Below, piece by piece: positions 1,791-43,255 of a stretch of DNA of 64,000 bases. Origin of the DNA: Bacteroidia bacterium (GTDB lineage: Bacteria > Bacteroidota > Bacteroidia > Flavobacteriales_D > Sanyastnellaceae); NCBI GenBank assembly GCA_030427925.1, contig JAUICJ010000004.1:62001-126000 (forward strand), read 5' to 3'. Both the position numbers and the translations under genes were made by a program. Position 1 is the stretch's first letter. Each line of letters begins with the position of its first letter. Below the pieces are notes generated by a model. That model was not told where the DNA came from, did not search any database, and was given only the letters and a program-made list of their open reading frames with translations.

Positions 1791-3491
1791 ATGTCAAAGG
1801 AAGGTCACAACGAAGCGCTCGAATCGGGAGCCGAAACGCGCAAGCCGCTCAATTTCATCGAGCAGAAAATCGAAGCTGATTTGGCTGCCGGCAAGCACGG
1901 AGGGCGCATTCACACCCGCTTCCCACCGGAGCCCAACGGGTACTTGCACATCGGTCACGCGAAGGCCATTTGCGTGAGCTTCGGTTTGGCCCAGAAGTAC
2001 GGAGGCGTGACGAACCTGCGCTTTGACGACACCAACCCAGAAAAGGAGGACACGGAATACGTCAACAGCATCCGCGAGGACATCGCTTGGCTCGGCTTTG
2101 AATGGAAAGGCGGGGAGTTCTACACGAGCGACTACTTCGAGCAGCTGTACCAAATGGCGCTTCAGCTGATCGATGCGGGCAAGGCCTACGTCGACGACCA
2201 AACCGCGGAAGAAATTGCCGCCCAGAAAGGCGCTCCGGGCACTCCGGGCACGCACAGTCCTTACCGCGACCGGTCGCCCGAGGAAAACCGCGCGCTCTTT
2301 GAACAAATGCGCGCCGGTGCATTCAAAGAGGGCGAACGCGTCCTTCGTGCGAAAATCGACATGGCGCACCCGAACATGCTCATGCGGGACCCGCTCATGT
2401 ACCGCATCAAGTACGCGCACCACCACCGCACGGGCGATGCATGGTGCATTTACCCCATGTACGATTTTGCTCACGGCCAAAGCGACTCCATCGAACACAT
2501 CACGCACAGCTTGTGCTCGTTGGAGTTCGAAAACCACCGACCGCTGTACAATTGGTTCATTGAACAACTCGGAATCTACCCGTCAGAACAAACCGAATTC
2601 GCCCGGTTGAACCTGAACTACACCATCATGTCCAAGCGCAAGCTGTTGCGCCTTGTTCAAGAGGGCGTGGTCGATGGGTGGGACGATCCGCGCATGCCCA
2701 CCATCAGCGGTCTGCGCCGCCGCGGATTCACGCCGGAGGCGATTCGAAATTTTGCGGACCGCGTGGGCTTGGCGAAGCGCAACAACGTCATCGACTTCAG
2801 CTTGCTTGAATGGGCCTTGCGCGATCACTTGAATCGGGTGGCTCCGCGTGCGATGGCGGTGCTGAAGCCGTTGAAGTTGGTGGTGGTGAACTACCCCGAA
2901 GGCCAAATCGAATGGATGCCCACCACCATCAACCCGGAAGATCCCGAGAGTGGCACGCGCACCATGCCGTTCGGTCGGGAGCTGTGGATTGAACAAGACG
3001 ATTTCCGCATCGAGGCGAACAAGAAGTGGTTCCGTTTGGCCCCGGGAAAAACCGTGCGCCTGAAAAGCGCGTTCATCGTGGAATACGTGGACCACGTCAC
3101 GAACGCGGAAGGTGAGGTGACGGAAGTGCATGTGAAGTACTTCGAGAACAGCCGCAGTGGAAGCGACACTTCGGGCATCAAAGCGAAGGGCACCCTGCAT
3201 TGGGTGGAGGCGGATCACGCTGTGGACGCGGAAGTTCGCCTCTACGACCGGCTGTTCAGTGTGCCATCACCGGACCAAGACGCCGACGTGGATTTCATGC
3301 AGTACGTGAACCCGAACAGCCTGGAGGTGTTGCACGGGGCGAAGGTGGAGCCGTACTTGGGCGATGCCGAATTGGGCGTTTCGTTCCAGTTCACGCGATT
3401 GGGCTACTTCACTCGGGATTCGAAGCACGGGCGCCCGGGCGCACCGGTGTTCAACCGCGCGGTGACGTTGAAGGACGGCTGGAAGGGCTGA
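1791..3491 (+). CDS. glnS: Glutaminyl-tRNA synthetase
   Basis: Class I aminoacyl-tRNA synthetase that charges tRNA-Gln in the cytoplasm. At 566 aa it has the usual bacterial GlnRS length. The Rossmann fold carries PPEPNGYLHIGHAKAI, with the HIGH signature at residues 53-56. The second ATP motif appears as IMSKRKL. The GlnRS-specific segment LRFDDTNPEKE follows the HIGH motif, and the C-terminal half is the anticodon-binding beta-barrel region. The E-rather-than-D context and the C-terminal barrel favour GlnRS over GluRS. The ATG at 1791 sits directly after a promoter box. The gene converges on the CCA-adding enzyme with a 1-bp gap and no obvious terminator between them. Confidence 0.97.
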   Translation: MSKEGHNEALESGAETRKPLNFIEQKIEADLAAGKHGGRIHTRFPPEPNGYLHIGHAKAICVSFGLAQKYGGVTNLRFDDTNPEKEDTEYVNSIREDIAWLGFEWKGGEFYTSDYFEQLYQMALQLIDAGKAYVDDQTAEEIAAQKGAPGTPGTHSPYRDRSPEENRALFEQMRAGAFKEGERVLRAKIDMAHPNMLMRDPLMYRIKYAHHHRTGDAWCIYPMYDFAHGQSDSIEHITHSLCSLEFENHRPLYNWFIEQLGIYPSEQTEFARLNLNYTIMSKRKLLRLVQEGVVDGWDDPRMPTISGLRRRGFTPEAIRNFADRVGLAKRNNVIDFSLLEWALRDHLNRVAPRAMAVLKPLKLVVVNYPEGQIEWMPTTINPEDPESGTRTMPFGRELWIEQDDFRIEANKKWFRLAPGKTVRLKSAFIVEYVDHVTNAEGEVTEVHVKYFENSRSGSDTSGIKAKGTLHWVEADHAVDAEVRLYDRLFSVPSPDQDADVDFMQYVNPNSLEVLHGAKVEPYLGDAELGVSFQFTRLGYFTRDSKHGRPGAPVFNRAVTLKDGWKG

Positions 3492-36106: not shown

Positions 36107-38167
36107 TCAGGATTGGTCCTTCATTTTCACCATGGTCAAGATGGTGGCCAACGCCACGGTTTCACCGGTTTCGTCGTACACGTCTACGAGGAACTTCACG
36201 ATGCCCTTCGCCACGTCGCCTTCGTCGCGCTTTTCCTGCGCCACCTTTTCCTTGACCGTTAACCGAACGCCGAGGGTGGTTCCCGGATAAACGGGCTTCG
36301 TGAAACGGGCCTCTTCGATGCCATAATTGAGCAGCACGGGGCCTTTCTTTGGGTCGACGAACAATCCCGCGGCTTTGCTCAACACGAAGTAACCGTGGGC
36401 CACGCGCCGTTCGAACACGGTTCCCTCCAAGCTGGTCTCGTCCATGTGGGCGTAGAAATTGTCGCCGCTGACGTTCGCGAAGTTGACAATGTCGGCTTCC
36501 GTGACCGTGTGCTTGTGGGTGGTGACCGTTTCGCCGATCACGAGGTCTTCGAAGTGCTTTCGGAAGGCATGCGGTTCGGATTCGGGCTGGGCTCCCCCCG
36601 GCTGGTATTGCTGCGTGATGGCGGTGAGCATGGTCGGCGAGCCTTGAATGGCGGTGCGCTGCATGTAGTGCTTGATTCCGCGCAGACCTCCCATTTCTTC
36701 GCCGCCACCCGCGCGACCGGGACCGCCGTGAACCAGCGAGGGGAGGGGGGAGCCGTGCCCCGTGGATTCTTTCGCGCAATCGCGGTCAAGCACCAGCATG
36801 CGACCGTGCATCGAGGCCGCACCGTAGACGAATTGCTGCGCTTCCGCGCTGTCGTGGGTGGTGATGGAACAGCAGAGCGAGCCGCGTCCCTTTTTGGCCA
36901 AAACCGAGGCCTCCTCCACGTCGTCGTACGCCATCAACGTGCTCACGGGACCGAAAGCCTCCACCTCGTGGCAGTTGACCGCCTCCATCGGACGATCGGT
37001 CCGAAAGACCATGGGCGCCATGAACGCACCGGCGCTGGCAGTGGACGAAACGAACTCCACGTCCGGGTTGAACACGAGTTCGGCTTCCTCGGCAAGGCGG
37101 GCGGCTTGAGCGCGCACTTCGGCCACTTGATCTTTGCTGACCAGCGCCCCCATGCGCACGCCCTCTTCTCGCGGGTCTCCGATGACGGTTTTCGCAAGTG
37201 CCGCGATGAGGGCTTCTTGCGTCGCGTCCATGAGGTGTCGGGGCACGAGGATGCGGCGGACGGCGGTGCATTTTTGGCCACATTTCACGGTCATTTCCTT
37301 CCTCACCTCTTTGATGAACAGGTCAAACTCGGGATCCCCAGGCTCCACCGTGGCCCCCAAGACCGCGGCATTCAGCGAATCGGCTTCCAAATTGAAGGGC
37401 ACCGAATGTTCCTGGATGCGCGCAGACTGCCGCAACTTCTTCCCCGTGCTCGCGCTTCCCGTGAACGTCACAACATCGCGTTCGTCCACGTGGTCGAGGA
37501 TGTCCCGTGCACTGCCACACACCCATTGCAACGCCCCATCGGGTAAGATGCCACTGGCCACGATTTCGCGGCAAACCGCCTCCGTCAAGAAACTCGTACC
37601 CGTCGCGGGTTTCACGATGCAGGGAACCCCAGCCAACCAATTCACGGCAGCCTTTTCGAGCATTCCCCAAACGGGAAAGTTGAACGCATTGATGTGAACG
37701 GCAACGCCCTCCTTCGGTGTCAGCAAATGGTGCCCACTGAACGAGCCGCCCTTGCTCAGTCCCAACGATTCGCCGTCCAAAGCGAACGGTGTGTCCGGCA
37801 ATTTTCGTCGCAAGCTGGCGTAGCTGAACAGGTTGCCGATGCCTCCTTCAATGTCAATCCAAGCGTCCGCGCGGGTGGCACCGGTGGCCCAGCTGATTTG
37901 GTAAAACACCTCCTTCTTTGCATGCAAATGCAACGCCAATCGCTTCAGCATGCGACCTCGCTCTTGAAACGTCATCTTGCGCAAGGCCAAATTCCCCACC
38001 GACCGGGCATAATTATAAGCACCTCCAAGGTCCAATCCCTCGGTGCTCGTCAACGCAACGACTTCGCCGGTCAGGGCACTATATATAGGTGTCGCATTCG
38101 CGGCATTCGCATTATCAATGAGTTGACCTTGCAGGCCGTGGACGAGGTGGGATGGGGAGGTGGACAT
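36107..38167 (-). CDS. paaZ: PaaZ: oxepin-CoA hydrolase / 3-oxo-5,6-didehydrosuberyl-CoA semialdehyde dehydrogenase
   Basis: The 686-aa bifunctional enzyme opens and oxidises the ring-cleaved oxepin-CoA in the phenylacetate pathway. Residues ~1-530 are an aldehyde dehydrogenase: NLEADSLNAAVLG, the catalytic Cys in GQKCTAVRRI, and GGGEEMGGLRGIKHYMQRTA near the domain end. Residues ~540-686 are a MaoC-like (R)-hydratase with ADIVNFANVSGDNFYAHMDE, the hot-dog catalytic Asp/His pair. The length equals typical PaaZ. The start ATG 38167 follows a TAAATTTGG promoter box. It heads a five-gene minus-strand operon. Confidence 0.95.
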   Translation of the reverse strand: MSTSPSHLVHGLQGQLIDNANAANATPIYSALTGEVVALTSTEGLDLGGAYNYARSVGNLALRKMTFQERGRMLKRLALHLHAKKEVFYQISWATGATRADAWIDIEGGIGNLFSYASLRRKLPDTPFALDGESLGLSKGGSFSGHHLLTPKEGVAVHINAFNFPVWGMLEKAAVNWLAGVPCIVKPATGTSFLTEAVCREIVASGILPDGALQWVCGSARDILDHVDERDVVTFTGSASTGKKLRQSARIQEHSVPFNLEADSLNAAVLGATVEPGDPEFDLFIKEVRKEMTVKCGQKCTAVRRILVPRHLMDATQEALIAALAKTVIGDPREEGVRMGALVSKDQVAEVRAQAARLAEEAELVFNPDVEFVSSTASAGAFMAPMVFRTDRPMEAVNCHEVEAFGPVSTLMAYDDVEEASVLAKKGRGSLCCSITTHDSAEAQQFVYGAASMHGRMLVLDRDCAKESTGHGSPLPSLVHGGPGRAGGGEEMGGLRGIKHYMQRTAIQGSPTMLTAITQQYQPGGAQPESEPHAFRKHFEDLVIGETVTTHKHTVTEADIVNFANVSGDNFYAHMDETSLEGTVFERRVAHGYFVLSKAAGLFVDPKKGPVLLNYGIEEARFTKPVYPGTTLGVRLTVKEKVAQEKRDEGDVAKGIVKFLVDVYDETGETVALATILTMVKMKDQS

Positions 38168-38187
38168 GCTCAGGATTTTTCTTCGGA

Positions 38188-38196
38188 CCAAATTTA
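38188..38196 (-). promoter_or_regulatory. paaZ operon promoter -7 box (TAAATTTGG)
   Basis: Minus-strand TAAATTTGG matches TAnnTTTG and lies 20 nt from the paaZ ATG. It is the only convincing box for the five-gene block down to 30119. Confidence 0.55.
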
Positions 38197-40904: not shown

Positions 40905-41129
40905 TTACCAATCGTCGTCGAGCAGGAAATCGGTGTTCTTGTACCTCGATTCCAGCTTGATGAGGTAATTGACCCCTTCAAGGTGGATGCGAAGGGCTTT
41001 GTAGATGAGGTTCTTTCCTGGGACTTCGATTTCGAAGGTTTCGTCTTCGTATCCGTCGGGATACAGCTCCGAGAGGGCAGAACGCACCTGCATGGGCAAG
41101 TTTTTGTAAGCGACGATGAGATTTCTCAT
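40905..41129 (-). CDS. Small conserved Bacteroidota protein
   Basis: A 74-aa acidic protein beginning MRNLIVAYKNLPMQVRSALS, with YPDGYEDETFEIEVPGKNLI in the middle and an acidic LLDDDW end. Bacteroidota genomes carry small proteins with this start (M-K/R-N-L-I-x-x-Y-K-N-L-P). Function unknown. An ATG four codons upstream (41141) is equally possible. The 3' end abuts the PhoD-like gene; the start is divergent from the CDO-methyltransferase gene. Confidence 0.7.
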   Translation of the reverse strand: MRNLIVAYKNLPMQVRSALSELYPDGYEDETFEIEVPGKNLIYKALRIHLEGVNYLIKLESRYKNTDFLLDDDW

Positions 41130-41221
41130 GGCAATGGACATTGAATTGACTTGTTGTTGAGCCCATTACGGAGATGGAAGCCAAATGGTTTCAGATGCGG
41201 ATGAACAGGCACCTTGAATTG

Positions 41222-41234: not shown

Positions 41235-42614
41235 ATGTTTGATTTTCAAGAATTGTTGCGCAGGGCCGAAGCATTCACATCAGGTGAGCCTTCCATGGAG
41301 GAACTGGGCGAGTGGGTTTTTCAACAGGATTGGTCGCAATTGGCGTGGAAGCATGCCCTTCCACAATGGGAAGAGGACGAAGCATATTCCAGGAACATTT
41401 TGGCCCTCGAGCCATTCGAAGTGGCGTTGTTGCGCTGGAAGCCAGGAGCAGAAAGTGCGGTGCACCTTCATGAAGGATTTTGGGGCTTCGTGGTTTGCTT
41501 GTCCGGTCAATTGGAGCATCACGGTTTCCGATATCAAAGTGGCAGGTTGACGCTGGAGGACCGGGTTGTGGCGTTCGAGGGCGGGGTGTTGGCCGAGCCC
41601 GATGGAACGGTTCACCGCTTGGTGAATGGAAGCGCCGATGAGCCACTTGTCACCTTGCACCTCTACTCGCCTGCGCTGGCGGATTTGGGCGGATTGCAGT
41701 TGTTTGATGTGGATCACCGCCATGTCTTTACGTTGGCCGCTTCTGCTCCCGCTGCGGTGCTGGGATTGGCCCCTGATCAATACGAGTCGGTTGAACGCGA
41801 TGCGTTTGTTTTGGAAGAGGGGGAAGTTTTGACCACCCATGTCATTACCCCCGTGGTTCCCAAACCCGCGTCCAAGCGAGTGAGGCAATTGCTTTCCGCT
41901 TATTATCGTGAGCAAGCGCAAGATTACGATCGGCTTGATCAATCCGATGAACGGCGCCGCGAATACACGCAAGGCATCAACGCTTGCATCGCCGAGCACT
42001 TGCAAGGACTGAATGACGAGCAACCCATTCGGCGCGTGCTCGATGTCGGATGTGGCACCGGACGGCGTGCTCGGGAAATCCGCGAGTTGAGCGGGTTGGA
42101 CTACCGCTTGTTGGGCACGGATTTGAGTCCAGAAATGCGGGCAATTGCAGCGGAACGCGGGTTGGAAATGCACGACGGGTTTTGGGAGGGAACCTCTGGC
42201 CTGAACGCGTTGGACGCCATTACTTTTTTGTATGCATTCAGCCACTTGGTCACGCCGATTGAACGGCAAGAAGCCTTGGTGAAATTGCGTTCCGCATTGC
42301 GTCCGGGAGGCATGCTGTTCATCGATGTGTTCAACCGAGAAGACCCGCACGAATGGGGGCCGCAATTGGTTGAGGATTTCGATTCTTGGTACTTGGGCCA
42401 ACAAGGGTACGATGCGGGGGATGTTTTTTATTCCCGCACGGGGAGCAAGGAATTGGCCTTTTTGCACTACACCAATGAACAGGAAATGACCGAGTTGCTC
42501 GAGCAGGCAGGCTTCAGCCAAATCGAATGCACGCGCATCGGGTACGCTCACAAGCCAGGTCAGGAGGTCGAAGAAGGAGGGAGCTTGATGTTTTATGCCA
42601 AAAACCCCATCTGA
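41235..42614 (+). CDS. Cysteine dioxygenase fused to a class I SAM methyltransferase
   Basis: A 459-aa cytoplasmic fusion. Residues ~35-200 are a cysteine-dioxygenase cupin. HLH at 77-79 and H127 form the iron triad. R53 in YSRN matches the cysteine-carboxylate Arg60 of rat CDO, and Y144 lies 17 residues after H127, as Tyr157 does after His140. The crosslink Cys position (+5 from the second His) is Gly84, as in bacterial CDOs. Residues ~222-459 are a methyltransferase with YYREQAQDYDRL, DVGCGTGRRAREI at 270, and GTDLSPEM. The CDO half should make cysteine sulfinate; the methyl acceptor is unknown. It overlaps pdxH by one base (TGATG). Confidence 0.88.
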   Translation: MFDFQELLRRAEAFTSGEPSMEELGEWVFQQDWSQLAWKHALPQWEEDEAYSRNILALEPFEVALLRWKPGAESAVHLHEGFWGFVVCLSGQLEHHGFRYQSGRLTLEDRVVAFEGGVLAEPDGTVHRLVNGSADEPLVTLHLYSPALADLGGLQLFDVDHRHVFTLAASAPAAVLGLAPDQYESVERDAFVLEEGEVLTTHVITPVVPKPASKRVRQLLSAYYREQAQDYDRLDQSDERRREYTQGINACIAEHLQGLNDEQPIRRVLDVGCGTGRRAREIRELSGLDYRLLGTDLSPEMRAIAAERGLEMHDGFWEGTSGLNALDAITFLYAFSHLVTPIERQEALVKLRSALRPGGMLFIDVFNREDPHEWGPQLVEDFDSWYLGQQGYDAGDVFYSRTGSKELAFLHYTNEQEMTELLEQAGFSQIECTRIGYAHKPGQEVEEGGSLMFYAKNPI

Positions 42615-43255
42615 TGAAGCAATTGCACGGAGTGAGAAAAGAGTACACGAGCCATGAGTTGCTCCGGTCGTCGTTGCCAGCGACGCCCGTTGAATTGTTG
42701 AATGAATGGTTTGAAGCTGCGCGCGGAGTCAATCCTTCTGAGTTCAATGCGATGTGCCTTTCGACCGTGGATGCGGAGGGTCGTCCGGATGCCCGCATGG
42801 TGCTGGCAAAGGATGTCAATTCCATGGGGGTCTCCTTTTTTACGAACGGTGATTCACAGAAGGGTCTTCAATTGAAGGCTCAACCATTTGCAGCGTTGAC
42901 CTTTTACTGGCCTGAGTTGGAGCGTCAAGTTCGCATTCGAGGTGGGGTAGCCCCGCTCAGTTCGGAAGAGAACGACGCCTACTTCCAAAGCCGTCCTCGA
43001 GCCAGCCAAATGGGGGCTTGGGCCTCGAACCAAAGCCGTCCGACCGACGGCCCCGATGACTTGCAGGCCCAATTCGAATCCATTGAAAAGCGGTTTGCAG
43101 GACAGGAACCCATTCAACGCCCACCCCATTGGGGGGGATTTCGAGTCGCACTTGGGGAGGTGGAGTTTTGGCAAGGACGACCGAGTCGGTTGCACCACCG
43201 CTGGCGGTTTCGACAAGTCGAAGGGCAGTGGACCGTTGAGGGCCTTCAACCTTAA
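42614..43255 (+). CDS. pdxH: Pyridoxamine/pyridoxine 5'-phosphate oxidase
   Basis: FMN enzyme that oxidises PNP or PMP to PLP. 213 aa, the usual length. Family features are the split-barrel FMN-binding strands (MCLSTVDAEGRPDARMVLAK, then GVSFFTNGDSQKGLQL), the substrate-binding RGGVAPLSSEENDAYFQSRP and WASNQS, and the C-terminal signature FWQGRPSRLHHR. Start ATG 42614 overlaps the stop of the CDO-methyltransferase gene, so translation is coupled. The stop overlaps the convergent rlmI-like gene (TTAA shared). Confidence 0.96.
   Translation: MKQLHGVRKEYTSHELLRSSLPATPVELLNEWFEAARGVNPSEFNAMCLSTVDAEGRPDARMVLAKDVNSMGVSFFTNGDSQKGLQLKAQPFAALTFYWPELERQVRIRGGVAPLSSEENDAYFQSRPRASQMGAWASNQSRPTDGPDDLQAQFESIEKRFAGQEPIQRPPHWGGFRVALGEVEFWQGRPSRLHHRWRFRQVEGQWTVEGLQP

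Follow-up and report, generated by a model that had tools for sequence, protein, structure and literature searches.

The window analyzed here is a 64,000-nucleotide stretch of a Bacteroidota genome (G000), and all coordinates refer to it. A previous reading of this DNA, made from the letters alone and called the sequence-only reading below, had described one frame that joins a cysteine dioxygenase (CDO) cupin to a methyltransferase and whose stop overlaps the start of pdxH. Both statements were borne out, and the locus comprises the following features:

41235–42614, + strand: CDO–methyltransferase fusion gene (P0001), an uninterrupted frame of 459 amino acids
41235–41714, + strand: N-terminal Arg-type cysteine dioxygenase cupin, approximately residues 1–160 (CDO_I, fold and profile matches)
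41715–41870, + strand: conserved extension or linker, approximately residues 161–212 (alignments; matches of stand-alone CDOs)
41871–42611, + strand: C-terminal class I SAM-dependent methyltransferase, approximately residues 213–459 (Pfam, motifs, models)
42614–43255, + strand: pdxH, pyridoxamine 5'-phosphate oxidase, 213 amino acids (P0002; TIGR00558)

Both domains of the fusion exceeded their Pfam cut-offs. CDO_I (PF05995) matched residues 50–149 with 39.4 bits (cut-off 23), and Methyltransf_23 and Methyltransf_25 matched residues 242–428 with 51.6 and 48.1 bits, respectively (cut-offs 27); Methyltransf_12 and Methyltransf_11 were likewise above cut-off in the methyltransferase half. The TGA stop of the fusion (42612–42614) and the ATG of pdxH (42614) overlap by one nucleotide. 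An AlphaFold2 model of the whole chain, computed from a 52-row alignment, reached a mean pLDDT of 93.5 and a pTM of 0.89. The linker also occurs in stand-alone CDOs nested within the fusion family, which match model positions 1–202; because it is common to these proteins, it is assigned to the CDO and not to the methyltransferase. Each domain comes from a known superfamily.

Other frames were noted in the vicinity. A 423-amino-acid antisense frame opposite the fusion (41280–42551, – strand), weakly mirrored in two relatives, is probably a by-product of codon composition. Upstream of the fusion lies a small divergent gene of 78 amino acids (40905–41141, – strand), and L059, L061, and L078 have similar small genes at the corresponding position. 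A 694-amino-acid frame at 36107–38191 (– strand), also present in the congener (L032), reads like an ordinary PaaZ-type protein with an aldehyde dehydrogenase and a hydratase domain.

The active site of the CDO half is strictly conserved. Y51, R53, H77, H79, H127, H142, and Y144 were invariant in 52 aligned fusions, and residue 140 was either Thr (49 sequences) or Ser (3 sequences). R53, the three iron-site histidines, H142, and Y144 align with their counterparts in Bacillus subtilis CDO. R53 stands in a Y-[S/A/T]-R context (YSRN in the window protein), and Y144 follows H127 by 17 residues, all of which agrees with the residues listed in the sequence-only reading. H77, H79, and H127 form a three-His iron site equivalent to His86, His88, and His140 of the rat enzyme, and R53, which marks an Arg-type enzyme, corresponds to the carboxylate-binding rat Arg60. 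The rat Ser-His-Tyr triad (Ser153, His155, and Tyr157) has its counterpart in T140, H142, and Y144, with His and Tyr kept and Ser conservatively replaced by Thr. In Gln-type enzymes, by comparison, the carboxylate-binding Arg is located elsewhere than in Arg-type enzymes (PMC8050391).

Structure and profile comparisons gave the same picture. The best CDO match of the model in Foldseek was Cys-bound B. subtilis CDO (4qm9), with a TM score of 0.85 (by target) and an rmsd of 2.4 Å. Against the CDO domain profile, B. subtilis CDO (3eqe) gave an E value of 2.9e-19 and mammalian CDO1 one near 1e-12, whereas the Azotobacter 3-mercaptopropionate dioxygenase (6xb9) was reached only at 1e-6. The fusion thus has the cupin fold, the three iron-binding histidines, Arg53, H142, and Y144 in common with B. 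subtilis CDO (3eqe/4qm9), but differs from it by a conserved extension of approximately 50 residues and the methyltransferase domain, and is only ~24% identical (23–24% to solved CDOs). By its residues, the first half is a complete Arg-type cysteine dioxygenase. L-cysteine is its likely substrate on account of the Arg53 signature, the active site, the fold, and the weaker match to 3-mercaptopropionate dioxygenase. Since every catalytic residue of an Arg-type CDO is conserved, cysteine sulfinate is the expected product, as had been proposed.

The C-terminal half shows a Rossmann fold and the SAM-binding motif I DVGCGTG, which had already been recognized, at residues 270–276; it is thus a class I methyltransferase. 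The family is further characterized by the motifs LYAFGH, EWGP, GDVFY, and FLHY and by the invariant residues H337, R344, D364, E373, W374, G395, D396, Y399, H411, and Y412. Modeled alone, the domain gave a pLDDT of 94.5. Its structural matches were tied at Z scores of 19–21.6 across N-, C-, and O-methyltransferases, and the fold therefore does not name a substrate. Among the tied matches was DhpI (3ou2/3ou6/3ou7), a phosphonate O-methyltransferase, and peptide and tRNA methyltransferases matched equally well.

The best non-fused hits of the methyltransferase profile among 295 genomes of the class were five proteins with 57–61 bits, all of them NmbA orthologues that are 43–45% identical to the NmbA of L018; the latter matched the solved NmbA with 112 bits. 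NmbA (PDB 9ri2) is likewise a class I enzyme and N-methylates the cysteine of bacillithiol (PMC12719100). In profile–profile comparisons with the nearest relatives, however, mainly the SAM-binding core and the region of strands 4–5 aligned, so that the likeness to NmbA may serve as a hint to a nitrogen target but not as an assignment. On the substrate side, NmbA has TSFGYF where the fused methyltransferase has YAFGH, a Tyr at the position of His337, and a poorly matching cap region. The fused domain is not an NmbA orthologue, given the 57–61 bits of the NmbA proteins against at least 331 bits for its own members. Nor is the fusion the NmbA of its genome, because that genome encodes a separate one at L181:1258-2031, which shares 42% identity with the L018 protein. 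Glycine/sarcosine N-methyltransferase (GSMT) and glycine N-methyltransferase (GNMT) are further close structures (Z ~20), with a conserved His in an xFxH motif after strand 4; the invariant His337 aligns with the His of the GSMT motif SFTH, although identity is only ~20%. Membership in the glycine/sarcosine N-methyltransferase family (NF051855) was rejected, with 19.8 bits for the window protein and 32.8 bits for that of L077 against an equivalog cut-off of 350, and the methyltransferase reached no NCBIfam equivalog cut-off.

The sequence-only reading had named an assembly error at the join among the findings that would refute its interpretation and had suggested a search for other fused members and their gene neighbors. 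The full-length fusion was intact in 12 of 60 relatives from 10 genera and was present in approximately 50 further named genome assembly records. These records, metagenome-assembled, are labeled Flavobacteriales, Crocinitomicaceae, Cytophagales, Chitinophagales, Saprospiraceae, and similar, a few of them only broadly. Altogether, 57 distinct loci with a full-length fusion were aligned or checked, and one of the carriers is a single-contig genome of 4.1 Mb (G012). For ten close pairs, dN/dS was 0.04–0.17 in the CDO and the methyltransferase halves alike, and both are thus under purifying selection. The 57 loci, the single-contig genome, and the low dN/dS exclude an assembly error as well as a decaying chimera.

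When 84,980 species genomes were scanned, full-length fusions turned up only in records titled as Bacteroidota groups, apart from two titled just 'bacterium'. No fusion was found among the CDO_I hits of 296 genomes from the phylum of L102 (Propionibacteriales) or of 194 genomes from the phylum of L106 (Leptolyngbya). The long CDO frames in the phylum of L102, which did not match the methyltransferase profile, are apparently products of upstream read-through. A plasmid match for the fusion was not found, and the non-subscription literature searched contained no description of such a CDO–methyltransferase fusion. Another unusual CDO build was seen in two genomes from the phylum of L106, where L199:1-1878(–) and L200:1465-3300(+) encode a CDO fused to a protein that reads like an FAD/NAD(P)-binding one with a GGGFSGTLVA motif.

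The methyltransferase is tied to the CDO, but not the reverse. In 295 genomes of the class, all seven occurrences of the methyltransferase subfamily lay inside a fusion and scored 331–374 bits, while the next hit scored 61 bits. The CDO part occurs without the methyltransferase in L136–L138 and L101. In the CDO tree, these stand-alone CDOs nest at two places among the fusions, which indicates that the methyltransferase was lost at least twice; the genomes of L136–L138 are 60–83% complete, so that a separate methyltransferase may be missed there, and the methyltransferase search left out the genome of L101. Such a one-sided association is consistent with a methyltransferase that acts on the CDO product. 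As the stand-alone CDOs also indicate, CDO activity needs no methyltransferase, which counts against the reading that we favor below.

A second, differently built CDO–methyltransferase fusion (type II) exists in three other Bacteroidota genomes (G038, G026, and G198):

L043:8470-10056, – strand; L044:3212-4816, + strand; L145:1351-3006, + strand: type II CDO–methyltransferase fusions of 528–551 amino acids

Both domains exceeded the Pfam cut-offs in L043 and L044, the two that were scanned, and L145 is homologous to L043 with 51% identity over the full length. As in the window fusion (type I), the CDO comes first and a class I methyltransferase last in a single chain. Type II differs by a spacer of ~130 residues between the two, by another methyltransferase subfamily, and by a CDO that forms a separate clade (support 100/99) together with a stand-alone relative, L168. 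In the methyltransferase tree, type II groups apart from type I, although a single methyltransferase clade was not rejected (AU test, p = 0.14). Judging from these trees, the two fusion types likely arose independently. Read from their sequences, the genes near the type II fusion of L043 form a bioF-bioD-bioA biotin cluster. The stand-alone relative in L168 (1465-2196, + strand) is followed after 5 bases by a gene (2202-3242, + strand) that reads like a tRNA 2-selenouridine synthase (selU).

The conserved neighbor of the type I fusion is pdxH. PdxH of the window matched TIGR00558 with 234.3 bits (equivalog cut-off 180). In 23 of the 57 distinct fusion loci, from at least three families, pdxH is the next gene downstream and on the same strand, with a spacing that ranges from an overlap of a few bases to a gap of 90 bases; the adjacency was not seen in the other 34 loci, some of them with only a short stretch of sequence beyond the fusion. 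The conserved gene pair makes co-expression plausible. PdxH was, however, present in 30 of 33 genomes as one full-length copy each and is the only copy in the window genome, for which reason its position does not reveal a pathway link. It was discarded as a pathway partner and is probably a housekeeping enzyme. Cysteine reacts with pyridoxal 5'-phosphate (PLP), and one may conjecture that this reaction is the reason for the pairing. Judged by reading the sequences, 13 distinct loci without a pdxH neighbor have a SulP-type anion transporter gene within five genes of the fusion (L048, L051, L052, L054–L056, L062–L064, L068, L070, L093, and L097), and isoaspartyl peptidase-like genes lie near the fusion in 8 distinct loci.

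On this basis, we propose that the fusion is a bifunctional enzyme that oxidizes cysteine to cysteine sulfinate and then methylates it with SAM, most likely on nitrogen, and we assign this reading a probability of roughly 45%. The first step, in which the N-terminal Fe(II) cupin would convert L-cysteine and O2 into cysteine sulfinate, is strongly supported by the conserved residues and the model. The transfer of a methyl group from SAM to this product by the C-terminal domain is suggested by the obligate fusion. That the methyl group goes to the amino nitrogen, yielding an N-methylated cysteine sulfinate, is indicated more weakly by the nearest relatives. Related bacteria pair CDO with a Pyridoxal_deC decarboxylase, a family that the window genome lacks, and this exchange of partners also favors the proposed reading: methylation would then replace the formation of hypotaurine expected of those gene pairs. 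The downstream PdxH would probably be co-transcribed and need not share the pathway.

It is unlikely, though not far-fetched, that the two domains share no intermediate at all and that the fusion links the disposal of cysteine to the use of SAM, for a balance of sulfur and methyl groups, or lets one domain regulate the other, with the methyltransferase acting on an unrelated small molecule or macromolecule. The equally good fold matches among peptide and tRNA methyltransferases would suit such an arrangement, as would the conservation of pdxH, an amino-acid cofactor gene, next to the fusion. The restriction of the methyltransferase to CDO fusions argues against it, and so does the second, different fusion; taken together, the two observations fit a shared substrate better than uncoupled domains.

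The sequence-only reading had considered that the methyltransferase modifies cysteine sulfinate or a derivative such as hypotaurine or taurine, and that PLP made by PdxH serves a sulfinate decarboxylase elsewhere. A role on the CDO product or a derivative is likely, because the methyltransferase is found only as part of a CDO protein, whereas hypotaurine and taurine gained no support. N-Methyltaurines are known natural products, which speaks for a target of this kind or further down the pathway, and related Bacteroidota do pair CDO with a decarboxylase. In all six stand-alone CDO loci whose neighbors were read for this comparison (L045, L046, L139, L141, L142, and L143, from other Bacteroidota), the CDO adjoins a Pyridoxal_deC gene, whose products are 57–91% identical to that of L045 and are the expected partners for hypotaurine formation. 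Like the fusion, these pairs combine CDO with one dedicated partner expected to act on cysteine sulfinate, but the partner is a PLP-dependent decarboxylase encoded by a separate gene, and no methyltransferase is involved. For the long-branch stand-alone CDOs of L144 and L146, the short stretch read contained no decarboxylase neighbor. Our search for decarboxylases, which covered the Pyridoxal_deC family (PF00282), found none in the window genome (99.5% complete) or in its only sampled congener (G001), and none in the fusion genomes G005, G015, G342, and G348. Some fusion genomes do have a Pyridoxal_deC protein; the closest, however, is 39% identical to the CDO-linked type and most are 25–35% identical, so that no close orthologue of the CDO-adjacent decarboxylases was found in fusion genomes. 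With no Pyridoxal_deC protein in the window genome and its congener, and with PdxH as the sole copy, neither the taurine route through a PF00282 decarboxylase nor the supply of PLP to it is supported here, and we regard methylation of hypotaurine, taurine, or a later compound as improbable.

Equally improbable is a methylation of the sulfinate group instead of the amine, which would give a methyl sulfone on sulfur or an ester on oxygen: O- and C-methyltransferases, including DhpI, are among the tied folds, but in sequence-profile comparisons N-methyltransferases come closest. Least probable of all, a cupin that oxidizes another thiol (cysteamine, 3-mercaptopropionate, or a peptide N-terminal cysteine) for methylation of its product would agree with the divergence of the CDO part (39 bits to CDO_I, 23–24% identity to solved CDOs) and its extra conserved extension, yet the whole active site, Arg53 included, is invariant, and matches to 3-mercaptopropionate dioxygenase are far weaker.

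The known bacterial fates of cysteine sulfinate are decarboxylation to hypotaurine and taurine or degradation to pyruvate and sulfite. A step beyond the proposed reaction, and more tentatively, a dedicated CDO–methyltransferase might have arisen twice in Bacteroidota to convert cysteine to a methylated sulfinate, which would be a previously undescribed branch of cysteine oxidation. N-methyl cysteine sulfinate would be one candidate product, which might act as a betaine-like solute or as the precursor of a novel sulfonate. The joining of a CDO to a methyltransferase found nowhere else, together with a second such fusion in another CDO lineage, points to an overlooked methylated sulfur metabolite in aquatic Bacteroidota.
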